A DNA stretch of 64,000 nucleotides from Gracilimonas mengyeensis. Lineage in GTDB: Bacteria > Bacteroidota > Rhodothermia > Balneolales > Balneolaceae. The notes under the pieces are model-generated. The model worked only from the letters and a program-made list of their open reading frames with translations. It was not told the DNA's origin and did not search any database. Shown here one piece after another: positions 45,390 to 50,391 of this stretch. The position numbers were made by a program, and so were the translations under genes. The DNA lies in NCBI RefSeq assembly GCF_900182705.1, contig NZ_FXTP01000014.1, positions 1-64,000 on the forward strand, read 5' to 3'. Numbering within the stretch: position 1 is the stretch's first letter; each line of letters begins with the position of its first letter.

Positions 45390-48300
45390 CTAATCCTGTT
45401 GTATAAGATGAGGTATAGGATCTAAGAAATTCTGATGGGCGTTCATCTTTTCTTTTATGGACAACATTTCTTCTTTGTTTGAAAACTTTTCTTTAGTGAC
45501 AAGAAATGCGGACCTGGCTTCATCAATAAGAATTTTAGATTCAATGCCAAATGTATCTTTTATCTTCCTGGCATAAGAAGTGGCTTCGCTTTTATTTTCG
45601 AACACACCAAGTTGCAGTCGATACTCAAAACTGGAGTTTAAAGTAGGAATCTCCCGTTCTGACTTTGAAATAAACAGGCTTTCTAAATCGGTAGATTCAA
45701 GCTGTTCTCTTTTATAGTCCTCTGCGGCCTCCTCAGAGTCGAAGTTGCCGGCTCGAACCATATACAATTTATTCTCCGGATCTTGTTCAACGAAAACCTT
45801 CGAAACTCCATAAGCTTTTTCAAGCTCGCTGAGATATGCTCTTGCTCGGTTAGCATTAGAAAAAGCCCCAAACTGTACGCTATAGCTGTTCGGTACATTT
45901 ATCTTTCTTGCACTGCTATCATAGCCACAATTAGTGACCAAAGCCGCTTCTTTTTGGTCTTCAGAAACCGCATCAAATACTGAACTTACTTCCCCCAAAG
46001 ATTGATAACTTTTCGTTCGGACCATGTACAAACCTGTGGCTTCGTGCATGATCACATGGGCCTGTTCTTTATTGAGTTGGTTGGCTACTGAAGATGCTCT
46101 ACTTAATGTCTCAACAGAGCTCACCTGAACACAATACTCCTGCTTTCCGCTTTCAATTGATTCAGTGCCAATGTTGTATTCTTCCGATGCTCCTTCTCTT
46201 ATATTAACTGGATCGTCCCCTCTACCCATACCCGTTTGTTCACCTTGAAGAGCATCTGAAGAAGACTCTTCATTTTGTTCTTCAGGCACCAACAAGAAAT
46301 TTAATCCCTCTACAAAATCCCCTTCCGGGATAGCCTCAATTTCAAAACGCAAGGTATCAGGTACGGATTTGACCCCAAGTTTCGTGAGGTTTCCGCTATC
46401 AACCACCATGTAATACCGCCCCGGTGGTATCTCATAAGAATAAAAACTTCCGTCAGAGAAGGTTCGGATTTCTTCCTCGTAATCACCCTCTTCTTCACGC
46501 AGTAATAAGCGTAAACCAGCCACTCCTCTCGTGCTGCCATCAGCATATCTGCGTTCAACTACTCCTTCCATCACGCCCGACATATAAAAGGGAATCTCTA
46601 CCTTCTTAAATCGATTGGGATCGGTAATCAAGCCAAACTGTTCGAATTCAGGAACCAGCATCGGATTGGCTAACGCCCCTTTATTCATTTCAAGATTGTA
46701 GTAATAGTAAGGCTGCATTTGGGTAAGATATAAAACCCCGTTTTTCATCACTGTCTGAGCACCGGAGCGTTGTACCCGAACGGCATTGGCATTTATCTCT
46801 TCATCCTCTGAGTCGTAGCTATTGTTGCCATTATTATCCACATATAATTTTACCGCCGTACCTGAGCGGCCGACCTGGTCCCGGCTGGTGAAAATGAAAT
46901 TATCGTAGTTAGAGTCATACCCTATAGAGCCCCGGACATTTTGTGTAAAGTTGCCTGTATTTCGAATATTGCTGTAAGTGGAATTGGTACGAACTTTTCC
47001 AAAGTCAATCACCATGCTAAAGCGAATGGTGTTAAATCCGCCGGTAAAATTGCGTCCTGCTGCTACCTGGAAACGACCTTGTTGGAAAACATGCCTGGAT
47101 AGCAAAAACTCTGCATTATCGACTTGCTGCAAGTTGGGTTGATAACGCATGGAAGCTCTAAGGAAGACGCCTCGCATGTAGGCTGGCAAATTTCTGTTCC
47201 GGGAGATGTTGTAGGTGGCAGCGCCCTCCATGTAGGCCGTTTGGGTAGGGTTCAGCAAATCAATAGTACCGGTATACCGGTCGCTATATCCCAGCCTTAA
47301 ATTCAACTTACCCAGGCGCATATTGGCATCCAGGCGTACGGTTGCGGTATTCGCTGATTCCCGGATGCGTGAAAAAGTAGAAGCCCTCACACTTATGGGA
47401 ATACCCAGAAGTTCTACCGGGTAAAAAACACTGGCCGTTATTCTTTTTTGGTCATTGGAAGGATTATAAAAGCCCACATTACTGCCTTCCATAAAATCGG
47501 TATAATCAATATTGATACTGGCAGAGTTTGGGTAAATAGCACTGAATATCCCACGATAATATACCTCAGAAGCCACTTCTGCAGTTAAGATATATTTCTT
47601 TAAGATGCGGGAAGATAGAGAGCTTGTGAATGTGGGTAACTCTTCATGATAATCTTCATAGTATTCCACTCCTGCTTTGGCCGTCAACCAGTCCGTGAGT
47701 CCATAGGAACCCGTACCCTGTGCAGTATAACTCAATTCCGTACTACCCAAAATCGGATTGTCCAGACGACCCGCATTTAAGGTGTAGTTAAACACCCCTT
47801 CAGGTTGAAAGGTAAACGGCACCTGTATACGCTGAGCCCGTTCAATAATCTGTCCTGTAGGGCCATAAATTCTAAGGTTTAGTCTTGACGTCCCATAGGT
47901 TATGGGTGTCAAAAAGCGATAATCCCCCATCTCATCCGCCTGTTGAAAATCAATGAGGGCATTGTTCAGGTATAGCTCAACTTCAGAGTCCGGAATCGTA
48001 TTCCCCTCAATCTCAAACTCATCAAAAAGCCTACGGGGCTCAATAGGTTCGTTGGTCAGCCGTATGCCGGTATATTGGCTTCGGGTTACACCATCGGTGG
48101 TAGTTTGGCCTATAGTCAGCTTGCTAAGCCATGACTGATCACGATACATATATCGCCAACGGAGATTGTTGGTTCCGAAATTGCCAAACTCATCCGAATA
48201 ACTCCCAAAAATGGCACCTTGTAAATCCCCACCATACAACTGGAAACCCACATTCGTATTAAAATTATACACATTTTGGGAAGTGGAAACATTAGAAGAA

Positions 48301-48905
48301 AGATTGTAATCGATGAACCCGGCATCCAGAAATGGGCGTTCCCGATCATATCGGAGATCGTAGCGTTGTTCTCTGAATTGATTCTGATCGGCCAGTTGAC
48401 GGCGCTGTCTTCGCATGGCTTCTGCAATGGCAGGCAATTCGCGAAAGGTTTCCAGGTTCAGCGTCAAGTTGTTAAAATCGATGGTAAAATCCAGATCAAA
48501 TGCTTCTGCAAATATATCCGCCCGGAGATATGAGTCTAACTCTTTATGAATATAGTCAACGGAGGATATCTCTGTTCTCTGCTCCCCAAACCGAATGACA
48601 TTGGATTCAAAGTTGATTAGATAGGGAATTTGATCGACCCCAAATTGTCCTGCTATATTTAAGCCTTCGGAGCGGTGATCAATACTAAACAGGGAGAAAA
48701 GCTCACTGACTGGGAGAAAGAATTCGTTATCCCGATAATAGGTAATGACTACCGTATTAATTACCCCTCTGTGACGAAAGTCGAGGTAAACCTCAAACTC
48801 TTCCGGATCCTCGTTTTGTGCTTGTAACGGTTTCCAAAAAGCCTCGATGCTACAGAGACCAACTATTGCTGAACCTATGATTGCAAACCGCCAAAAATTT
48901 TGCAC
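45390..48905 (-). CDS. Usher-like outer membrane protein with three C-terminal SPOR domains
   Basis: The 1171-residue protein has a signal peptide (about 1-30), an N-terminal periplasmic domain (35-165), a long beta-rich barrel (about 190-740) with an embedded plug-like domain (295-365: VELYLNNALIDFQQADEMGD; LNLRIYGPTGQIIERAQRI), a transthyretin/carboxypeptidase-regulatory-like domain (about 815-890, GVVERRYADGSTRGVAGLRL) and three SPOR-like domains at 921-993, 1006-1081 and 1093-1158 (SYSVQFGAFSNANRARAYLS; YRLQLGVFENKSEATSYARK). Ushers translocate chaperone-bound pilins; SPOR domains bind glycan strands lacking stem peptides. The PapD-like chaperone gene ends four bases upstream. The usher call rests on layout and context, since similarity to PapC is low. 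The SPOR fusion is not something I know from described ushers. Confidence 0.75.
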   Translation of the reverse strand: MQNFWRFAIIGSAIVGLCSIEAFWKPLQAQNEDPEEFEVYLDFRHRGVINTVVITYYRDNEFFLPVSELFSLFSIDHRSEGLNIAGQFGVDQIPYLINFESNVIRFGEQRTEISSVDYIHKELDSYLRADIFAEAFDLDFTIDFNNLTLNLETFRELPAIAEAMRRQRRQLADQNQFREQRYDLRYDRERPFLDAGFIDYNLSSNVSTSQNVYNFNTNVGFQLYGGDLQGAIFGSYSDEFGNFGTNNLRWRYMYRDQSWLSKLTIGQTTTDGVTRSQYTGIRLTNEPIEPRRLFDEFEIEGNTIPDSEVELYLNNALIDFQQADEMGDYRFLTPITYGTSRLNLRIYGPTGQIIERAQRIQVPFTFQPEGVFNYTLNAGRLDNPILGSTELSYTAQGTGSYGLTDWLTAKAGVEYYEDYHEELPTFTSSLSSRILKKYILTAEVASEVYYRGIFSAIYPNSASINIDYTDFMEGSNVGFYNPSNDQKRITASVFYPVELLGIPISVRASTFSRIRESANTATVRLDANMRLGKLNLRLGYSDRYTGTIDLLNPTQTAYMEGAATYNISRNRNLPAYMRGVFLRASMRYQPNLQQVDNAEFLLSRHVFQQGRFQVAAGRNFTGGFNTIRFSMVIDFGKVRTNSTYSNIRNTGNFTQNVRGSIGYDSNYDNFIFTSRDQVGRSGTAVKLYVDNNGNNSYDSEDEEINANAVRVQRSGAQTVMKNGVLYLTQMQPYYYYNLEMNKGALANPMLVPEFEQFGLITDPNRFKKVEIPFYMSGVMEGVVERRYADGSTRGVAGLRLLLREEEGDYEEEIRTFSDGSFYSYEIPPGRYYMVVDSGNLTKLGVKSVPDTLRFEIEAIPEGDFVEGLNFLLVPEEQNEESSSDALQGEQTGMGRGDDPVNIREGASEEYNIGTESIESGKQEYCVQVSSVETLSRASSVANQLNKEQAHVIMHEATGLYMVRTKSYQSLGEVSSVFDAVSEDQKEAALVTNCGYDSSARKINVPNSYSVQFGAFSNANRARAYLSELEKAYGVSKVFVEQDPENKLYMVRAGNFDSEEAAEDYKREQLESTDLESLFISKSEREIPTLNSSFEYRLQLGVFENKSEATSYARKIKDTFGIESKILIDEARSAFLVTKEKFSNKEEMLSIKEKMNAHQNFLDPIPHLIQQD

Positions 48906-48909
48906 TTAG

Positions 48910-49746
48910 TCAGGGAATCGTTACCGTCGTGGTTGCAGTTACGGGTTGCATTTGGACGAGTTCGTCTGCGGGGATATCACTACGTCTCGTTTCATACTGT
49001 ATTTCAATGGTATAATTTCCTGATTCTATATCATCTATCGTCAATTCTTCCCTGTGGGTACCATCAAAGTATAAAGTAGTAGAAGTCACATTTTCTTTAA
49101 CTACATTGCCAGAATCATCTTTAAGCTGGGTTGTTATCGTTCCTAAAAAGGGTGAATTACCCAACCTTTGAAAGTCTGCTAAAACAATCAAGGAATCATT
49201 ATTTATGAGTGGCCTGATTTCTTCTACTTCAATACCCGTACTTACCTCACCTTTCTTTAAAAATATTCCTGAGATTTGCTGAATATTTATTCCCACTCTT
49301 GCCGTAACATTGTCGGAAGATTCTACTTCGACAGGAGGACTGACCGGGTTAGAAGAAGTCCTAATTCGTGCCCAATAGGTTTTTTCATCAAGATTAGCTG
49401 GAGGATTAACCCTTATTCTTACAACCTGTCTGCGCCCCGGATTTAATGTAAAATCCTGAGGAAAAGCACGCATATATTCCACAAGTGAATACTCTGATGC
49501 AGTCGTAGAATCGTCAAATACCAAACTTCTTATTCCAAGACTATCAGTAGAGGTATAACCAAAAAGAAAATCAACTGATATCTCTTGGTTCTCCTGCGAA
49601 TTATTAATTACCAGATACGTCGCAAAATTTGAATTAGCATCTATAAACAAATTTGTAGGTGCAATAGCAACTTGTGAATAAGCATTAGTTGCTATGAAAA
49701 CCCCCATTACCAAAAATATATATCGCTTCAAAACTTTTTCCATCAT
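48910..49746 (-). CDS. PapD-like periplasmic pilus chaperone
   Basis: A 278-residue protein with a signal peptide (to about Ser 24) and two Ig-like domains. The first has IAPTNLFIDANSNFATYLVI, MRAFPQDFTLNPGRRQVVRI and YWARIRTSS, which follow the PapD pattern of a strand ending in a Pro-rich loop and a basic residue; the F1-G1 region is NVTARVGINIQQISGIFLKK with alternating hydrophobics for donor-strand complementation. It is longer than the usual 230 residues. It sits between the pilin and usher-like genes. ATG at 49743 is an equally possible start. Confidence 0.82.
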   Translation of the reverse strand: MMEKVLKRYIFLVMGVFIATNAYSQVAIAPTNLFIDANSNFATYLVINNSQENQEISVDFLFGYTSTDSLGIRSLVFDDSTTASEYSLVEYMRAFPQDFTLNPGRRQVVRIRVNPPANLDEKTYWARIRTSSNPVSPPVEVESSDNVTARVGINIQQISGIFLKKGEVSTGIEVEEIRPLINNDSLIVLADFQRLGNSPFLGTITTQLKDDSGNVVKENVTSTTLYFDGTHREELTIDDIESGNYTIEIQYETRRSDIPADELVQMQPVTATTTVTIP

Positions 49747-49810
49747 AGTATATTTTAGTATTAATCAACTAGAAGCTAATAAAAAAAGACCAACATTAAT
49801 TATTTAACCA

Positions 49811-49842
49811 AAAAAAAGTCTCACTTGGTCAAGTGAGACTTT
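49811..49842 (-). terminator. Terminator-like hairpin between pilin and chaperone genes
   Basis: Perfect 12-base arms AAAGTCTCACTT (49815-49826) and AAGTGAGACTTT (49831-49842) with loop GGTC; on the minus strand a run of seven T follows. It lies 22 bp after the pilin stop and about 65 bp before the chaperone start, so it would end most pilin transcripts and let a fraction read through. Confidence 0.92.
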
Positions 49843-49863
49843 AAAATAAATCAACTGATACTT

Positions 49864-50391
49864 TTAATAACTGACTGTGACTGTCAATGCAGTACCACCT
49901 GCATTTGAGGTAGAATAACTTCCTGCAATTGCACCTGCTGAAGATAAGGAACCACCAATACTAATAGTCGCTTCACCGCTACCATCTAATGACAAAGATG
50001 CTGTTTTACTGGTTCCACCACCAGCTCCTGCTTTCTCTGTACTATTATGAGACAAAACTGGTTGAAAATTGATGGTATTTGTACCATCGCTGAGAACAAC
50101 ATCTGTATTCCAAACTATTTCAACTGTTGTGTTATTAGCACCCTGACTAATTGAAACAGCTCCAGGAGTATCTGAACCAGTATTGCTTGATGCAGTTTCT
50201 CCAGTGAAACCTGCCTGTATGTAAGCATTTGTGTTGTTGTCAACATCTCCAAAAACAATATCTGAGCCGCTTACTTGTAATACGTTTAATACATTAGCAC
50301 TCGCATTGACTATTGCTTGCTGTGCCAAAGCCCCTGTTGATAAAATAGCCGCCAGGGCAAAAGCGGATAAAATGGTTTTTAAAGTTTTCAT
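49864..50391 (-). CDS. DUF4402 pilin-like subunit
   Basis: The 175-residue product has a signal peptide (MKTLKTILSAFALAAILSTG, cleaved after LAQ) and a DUF4402-type beta-sandwich: ANVLNVLQVSGSDIVFGDVD, GAVSISQGANNTTVEIVWNT, SGEATISIGGSLSS. The C-terminus GGTALTVTVSY is a beta-strand of alternating hydrophobics with a terminal Tyr, as in chaperone-usher subunits, and the mature N-terminus alternates too (donor strand). DUF4402 proteins are often encoded with PapD-like chaperones. It should be the main fibre subunit. No cysteine pair and no tip adhesin gene are seen. Confidence 0.82.
   Translation of the reverse strand: MKTLKTILSAFALAAILSTGALAQQAIVNASANVLNVLQVSGSDIVFGDVDNNTNAYIQAGFTGETASSNTGSDTPGAVSISQGANNTTVEIVWNTDVVLSDGTNTINFQPVLSHNSTEKAGAGGGTSKTASLSLDGSGEATISIGGSLSSAGAIAGSYSTSNAGGTALTVTVSY

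Follow-up and report, generated by a model that had tools for sequence, protein, structure and literature searches.

To our knowledge, descriptions of chaperone-usher pili present them as self-energised structures, lacking a motor and any known attachment to the cell wall. Their archaic representatives are placed in Proteobacteria, Cyanobacteria and Deinococcus-Thermus in the available part of PMC4654587, and the survey of PMC4793230, as far as its available text goes, left chaperone-usher systems out. SPOR domains bind denuded glycan, which is enriched at the septum, and those known are found in division and morphogenesis proteins, according to the accessible portion of PMC6895207. The locus described here lies in the first 64,000 nucleotides of contig NZ_FXTP01000014.1 (RefSeq assembly GCF_900182705.1) of Gracilimonas mengyeensis, a member of the Balneolaceae; this whole stretch is referred to as the window. 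Three of its minus-strand genes encode a predicted pilus subunit, a predicted PapD-like chaperone and a predicted outer-membrane usher with a tail of three SPOR domains, and this tail probably clamps the usher, and with it the pilus base, to peptidoglycan, taking the place of a flagellar-type motor module. Among the matches listed in a search of titles and opening lines of abstracts, which covered open papers outside subscription journals and preprints, there was no report of a SPOR-tailed usher or of an usher accompanied by motor genes.

An initial annotation, made from the sequence alone, had proposed a divergent chaperone-usher system, with coordinates and gene lengths that agree exactly with the list of open reading frames (ORFs). 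Because the sequence libraries missed both usher and chaperone, their identity rests on profile-profile and fold comparison, which bears the proposal out. In the hidden Markov model search, the usher family PF00577 scores 24.3 bits on the usher, below its cut-off of 27.1 (E = 1.9e-5), and this is its sole match in the genome; among 24 scanned ushers, that of the window included, two match at E ≤0.1, the best at 6.2e-4. For the chaperone, no PapD-type family in Pfam or NCBIfam is over cut-off; the best Pfam match is Gmad2 (0.01), and NCBIfam offers at best an S-layer model, whose 20.9 bits fall short of its cut-off of 400 despite an E of 8.7e-5. Searches of the PDB by sequence at E 10 returned zero matches for either protein, and when a profile of the usher was the query, the only matches were two irrelevant ones (best E 0.0036). 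Curated family models thus miss this family of ushers. In profile-profile comparison, a profile built from 67 ushers of this and related genomes reaches an HHalign probability of 94.1 against four ushers of Escherichia coli K-12, the match spanning 546 columns (reversed control, 0.5). The corresponding chaperone profile reaches 81.3 against four chaperones of E. coli, with 140 columns matched (reversed control, 0.4).

The AlphaFold2 model of the usher has a mean predicted local distance difference test score (pLDDT) of 78.2 and a predicted template modelling score of 0.58. FimD and PapC account for all of its 19 best Foldseek matches (best E 6e-30; template modelling score, TM, 0.60 when normalised to target length and 0.37 when normalised to query length), and VIA-align superposes 619 residues on FimD with a Z of 25.0 at 9.2 Å and 361 residues on the FimD pore with a Z of 23.0 at 4.2 Å, the next non-usher barrel family reaching 15.4. 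The high root-mean-square deviation (rmsd) of the full-length matches is taken to reflect domain orientation, and reliance is placed on the pore; usher residues 195-664 can be aligned with the pore structures of FimD and PapC at 3.9-4.2 Å. About 25 candidate barrel strands were counted on the model; the initial annotation had staked the assignment on a barrel of 20 or more strands with a plug. The chaperone model (pLDDT 93.5) likewise supports the two-domain PapD-like protein that had been claimed. Its best Foldseek match is EcpB (E 1.4e-9, a modest TM of 0.43/0.60, rmsd 8.2 Å), with CfaA, FimC and CsuC near, and usher-pathway chaperones fill most of the 50 rows shown; the WxLIP fold stands at ranks 3, 4 and 8. 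These models identify the 1171-residue protein as a divergent usher of the chaperone-usher pathway and the 278-residue protein as a PapD-like chaperone.

The C-terminal domains of ushers are periplasmic. It is at this end that the initial annotation had placed three SPOR domains, and PF05036 matches the usher there at 5.5e-23 in three stretches, all over the Pfam cut-off in a scan of the whole genome. In the model, the second and third domains are folded, and residues 878-1006, the linker and first domain, have pLDDT values below 50. Each of the three holds the conserved Gln (identified as the most Gln-rich column of an alignment outside which RlpA and FtsN stand), which by its place would be the Gln that contacts glycan. 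The tail may accordingly be pictured in the periplasm, where the C-terminal linker and SPOR domains would reach and bind peptidoglycan, as their domain identity suggests, and so give the pilus base a mechanical hold on the wall; the tie between usher and cell wall put forward initially is still the best reading of the tail. The linker between usher and SPOR domains is ~50 residues long in the window and several hundred in L041, L044 and L055 (L numbers denote fetched loci), where by eye it is acidic and proline-rich; the reach of the tail across the periplasm seems to vary among ushers.

In a survey of the phylum the usher was found in 50 of 247 genomes and is common in the window's own family (26 of 30), named carriers including Balneola, Fodinibius, Rhodohalobacter, Rhodonellum and Algoriphagus. 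These searches, with protein queries, scored at most three candidates per genome, so that second copies can be missed. The order subunit, chaperone, usher recurs in relatives, in which, as in the window, the three genes stand together (ORFs and synteny). Three sediment contigs labelled Thioalkalivibrio, Nitriliruptoraceae (an actinobacterium) and archaeon (L146, L147 and L150) also carry the usher; these are probably misbinned.

Among the fetched loci the usher operon has two different 3′-ends: either a SPOR-tailed usher is the last gene, or the usher has a TPR tail and is followed by motor genes. The 71 distinct ushers comprise 18 with a TPR tail, 30 with a SPOR tail, 19 with neither tail nor motor and 4 cut by contig ends. 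A FliF-FliG-like gene accompanies the TPR tail in 18/18 cases and is missing from 30/30 with a SPOR tail, absence being defined as no FliFG profile match above 50 bits within the fetched locus. At least 2 kb of downstream sequence is available for 26 of the 30 SPOR-tailed ushers (in two of the 30 the contig ends inside the usher gene), and a motor gene follows in 0/26. On a tree of the 71 ushers, a quick one with several long branches, the tail state changes about nine times, and a change of tail is matched by a change of motor in 9/9 independent pairs (sign test, p = 0.0039). When 21 near relatives were placed on a careful tree, supported branches forced at least four changes. At the level of sequence, these counts establish the alternation of two modules under a common barrel. 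Both modules would work at the base of the pilus, which one would clamp and the other would drive.

The SPOR arrays of the two forms are related. The three-SPOR tails of 15 ushers and of 14 MotB proteins of the motor operons are homologous, with a best match of 4e-24, and the window tail is 26.5% identical to the best MotB tail (4e-16). In a tree confined to tails with exactly three SPOR matches, a single branch (95/85) separates the usher tails from the MotB tails; three branches are long, and two of these meet. A Cys...Gln-Cys-Tyr signature is present in the first SPOR domain of 9/15 usher and 12/14 MotB tails. An origin of the SPOR tail by a recent deletion that fused the usher with the tail of the MotB at that locus was considered and rejected; the usher and MotB tails lie on the two sides of that branch, and in a pair from one genus, L042 and L043, the usher tail shares 27% identity with the MotB tail, against ~80% between the barrels. 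In four sister pairs of differing form identity is high and collapses only within alignment columns 850-900, and in relatives the same neighbour families follow either form, although not in the window. The two forms would thus be old alternative cassettes that replaced one another in situ under a common usher barrel, which fits the data better than recent deletion.

The motor form occurs in relatives, some of them in the genus of the window. Its usher, as a rule of ~1000 residues, is followed by four closely spaced genes for a FliF-FliG-like fusion, a TPR lipoprotein, MotA and MotB, the last usually with SPOR domains. The fusion protein has ~620 residues and matches FliG_M (1.7e-10) and FliG_C (1.5e-11) over cut-off; its profile matches E. 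coli FliG at an HHalign probability of 98.5 over 286 columns. The N-terminal part resembles the RBM3 domain of FliF: the whole profile reaches 95.3 over 139 columns against three FliFs and 69.2 against E. coli FliF alone, the N-terminal part by itself reaches 86.2 against FliFs (reversed control, 1.0), and the profile finds the FliF of the window's own genome at 1.5e-6. MotA matches at 7e-17. MotB combines an OmpA domain with two to three SPOR domains, with MotB_plug over cut-off in one of two scanned; in the second family of the order it lacks SPOR domains (L056). Strong FliF-FliG-like matches occur in 14 of 394 genomes of the phylum, each adjoining an usher, as do weaker ones in G112 and G022. 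The full quartet is present in 15 of 18 relatives with a TPR-tailed usher; L162 ends with its contig, and L138 (3358-4606) and L071 have a shortened FliFG with no MotA or MotB found beside the usher, cassettes that look degraded by apparent decay. Across the motor operons with and without an usher, the ion-binding Asp of MotB is present in 24/24 rows and two Pro of MotA in 25/25, and in FliG, Arg281 is Arg in 23/25, position 289 is Glu in 22/25 and Lys264 is retained in 4/25; the residue numbers and roles are those we presume for these sites. Because the Asp and Pro residues are kept and Lys264 is mostly lost, the stator looks functional and the rotor face altered.

Motor genes of this type could belong to an ordinary flagellum, and this was rejected as the main explanation: a survey of flagellin took in 11 of the 14 motor-form genomes, of which seven have no flagellin match and four have one. 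The motor genes might otherwise serve another machine, for example in gliding or in the envelope, and be merely co-transcribed with the usher, the alternation of SPOR and TPR tails then being linkage without shared function. Related FliFG-TPR lipoprotein-MotA-MotB operons with no usher in the fetched stretch (L105 6631-11687, L106, L107, L108, L114 and L115; L109-L111) favour this explanation; however, it is the usher's own tail that changes together with the motor genes, and the TPR tail has a specific relationship to the lipoprotein of the operon: of all ORFs called in the fetched loci, its profile matched only ushers and the operon TPR lipoproteins. We regard a separate machine as improbable, at roughly one chance in four. 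The usher-less operons also hold an unnamed protein of ~360 residues which, in three of five cases, ends in Phe after strand-like segments and by eye may end in an outer-membrane barrel. These operons are a flagellar-type motor module outside the flagellum, and the module may pair with different outer-membrane partners.

Comparison among genomes prompts a proposal wider than the clamp: that these pili of Balneolota and related bacteria have two interchangeable bases, a SPOR clamp or a TPR-coupled, ion-driven FliF-FliG/MotAB assembly that turns or otherwise works the pilus, and that lineages swap the cassettes. In the alternative module, the TPR-tailed usher would be joined by a FliF-FliG-like rotor and a MotA/MotB stator, whose MotB, in the family of the window, carries SPOR domains of its own. 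We give this wider proposal an even chance. Several results count against it, or against the clamp. The window genome has no FliF-FliG fusion, no second MotB and no motor cassette, every candidate having been scored in the searches for FliG_C and with the FliFG profile; FliG, MotA and MotB genes are absent directly after the usher, and the only matches in the genome to FliG_C, MotB_plug and the FliFG profile belong to the ordinary flagellar cluster on another contig, C11. Since, in addition, the genes flanking the trio differ from those flanking it in relatives, the link to a motor touches the window only by descent. The 19 of 71 ushers with neither tail nor motor imply that tethering is unnecessary for the pathway. 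None of the motor-cassette proteins scanned reached an NCBIfam equivalog cut-off, as expected of a divergent set. The first and third SPOR domains of the window are weak (3.1e-4 and 4.3e-4), the first falls in the low-pLDDT region, and it has only a shifted variant of the Cys signature. The Gln is retained by 56 of 83 usher SPOR domains, with a gap at that position in seven, and by 38 of 42 in MotB, so that some usher SPOR domains may not bind glycan.

The SPOR tail could instead be an address, carrying the usher to denuded glycan at the division site so that fibres appear at the septum or young poles with no clamp. That the window usher has three SPOR domains of a kind that binds septum-enriched glycan, and that is known from division and morphogenesis proteins, speaks for such targeting. 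The homologous array in relatives is, however, carried by a MotB-like stator beside an OmpA-type domain, a domain that serves to anchor MotB to peptidoglycan, and the number of SPOR domains varies widely, from one to five per tailed usher. Septal targeting is judged unlikely, and clamping of the pilus base remains the preferred reading of the tail.

The substrate of the usher was claimed initially to be a DUF4402-like subunit forming a single-subunit fibre. The window subunit has no match to DUF4402, nor to any Pfam or NCBIfam family over cut-off; four of six sibling subunits scanned do match DUF4402 (PF14352), one of them above cut-off (8e-8). Subunits of the chaperone-usher pathway are completed by donor strands, and the window subunit, whose termini looked donor-strand-like in the initial annotation, may be completed likewise. 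A profile of 30 subunits that includes the window subunit finds it at 1.7e-29, a near-C-terminal Tyr is invariant across the 30, and among the 29 aligned with it the window subunit is most like the chaperone-adjacent subunits of relatives; the subunit profile compares weakly with E. coli subunits (HHalign 24.6 in the FimA comparison). The single-subunit fibre is contradicted, since the same genome has three more subunit genes at C11:145474-147154 (7e-53, 2e-32 and 4e-29 with the 30-subunit profile); a weaker match of 147 residues lies on C8 (4e-5). In relatives, subunit genes, frequently four, often directly precede the chaperone, and the operon of the window looks split. The usher would thus be supplied by four subunit genes, one in the window and three on the other contig. 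As in the known pathway, the periplasmic PapD-like chaperone would assist the folding of their products and hand them to the usher for polymerisation and export. Export by this usher and chaperone of an amorphous coat or matrix, with a tail that only stabilises the usher, is quite unlikely: some chaperone-usher products are capsule-like and the subunits are divergent, that of the window being without a Pfam match, but four subunit genes and, in relatives, the order subunits-chaperone-usher match assembled pili.

The claim that the trio forms one operon stands as to gene order and strand, but a terminator-like site separates subunit from chaperone (Table 1). Such an element is present in 47 of 68 subunit-chaperone spacers (41 of 62 when six second copies of one locus are removed) and in 0.4% of mononucleotide shuffles, which kept base content and not dinucleotide content. 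Raw scans for promoters and terminators gave counts not above those of shuffles, and this terminator is the only one that was followed. It is probably a leaky attenuator that, placed after the last subunit gene, would keep subunits in excess over chaperone and usher.

Table 1. Features of the chaperone-usher locus, in window coordinates
Feature	Position	Strand	Description	Basis
Subunit gene	49864-50391	minus	175 aa; DUF4402-like pilus subunit	ORF list
Intrinsic-terminator-like site	49815-49842	minus	12-pair stem and T-run, between subunit and chaperone genes	
Chaperone gene	48910-49746	minus	278 aa; PapD-like, periplasmic (predicted)	model, Foldseek, HHalign
Usher gene	45390-48905	minus	1171 aa, GTG start; outer-membrane usher with SPOR tail (predicted)	Foldseek, VIA-align, HHalign
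Usher barrel with inserted plug	46914-48329	minus	residues 193-664	strand list of model; plug is a reading of the model
SPOR domain 1	45963-46142	minus	pLDDT <50 in model	PF05036, E 3.1e-4, over cut-off
SPOR domain 2	45678-45890	minus	folded in model	PF05036, E 9.6e-13, over cut-off
SPOR domain 3	45435-45626	minus	folded in model	PF05036, E 4.3e-4, over cut-off

Upstream of the three C11 subunit genes stand the ordinary flagellar cluster and several genes for proteins with, by eye, one N-terminal membrane segment. The latter genes (C11:140000-145300; L186 7002-12294) encode proteins of 140-178, 199 and 376-446 residues, one of which matches DUF4900 (1.9e-12), and genes of similar size precede the subunits in several relatives; by eye, the C11 proteins look like minor-pilin-type proteins. 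Upstream of the subunit genes in L119 (198-5450), and similarly in L120, L134, L148, L157, L166 and L172, is a gene for a secreted protein of more than 1600 residues, which in L119 carries Invasin_D3 repeats together with a type IX secretion tail. This is a possible adhesin of the relatives; no such large adhesin-like gene was found beside the trio of the window.

A family whose usher is either tied to the wall or followed by flagellar motor genes would make it directly testable whether chaperone-usher pili can be powered. If the motor module does act on the pilus, it would exemplify the use in nature of a flagellar-type motor for a different appendage, and this in several species with no flagellin match. 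Like the flagellar motor, the cassette of the relatives has proteins of the FliG_M/FliG_C, MotA and MotB types; it differs in fusing a FliF RBM3-like part and FliG in one chain, in keeping FliG Lys264 in only the few operons noted above, and in that no rod, hook or export genes are seen in the operon. The SPOR domains are of the same PF05036 family as those of FtsN, DamX and RlpA, with the conserved Gln in the first strand, but they are carried in the window by an outer-membrane usher and in relatives also by a MotB-like stator, whereas the SPOR proteins covered in the available part of PMC6895207 act in division and morphogenesis. Compared with type 1 and P pili (FimC/FimD and PapD/PapC), the locus has, by fold, the same usher barrel and C-terminal domains and the same two-domain PapD-like chaperone, in the same order of subunit, chaperone and usher genes. 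The window usher is, however, only 11-15% identical to FimD and PapC in the Foldseek alignments and misses the PF00577 cut-off, its tail of ~300 residues with three SPOR domains lies outside the aligned part (which extends to about residue 874), and the subunits are of the DUF4402-like kind. The closest solved chaperones include those of the archaic and alternative Csu, ECP and CFA/I systems, represented by CsuC, EcpB and CfaA. Csu has four subunits per system, according to the part of PMC4654587 that is available, and the genome of G. mengyeensis likewise has four; relative to the phyla named in that part, ushers of the window type extend the chaperone-usher pathway to Balneolota and Bacteroidota.

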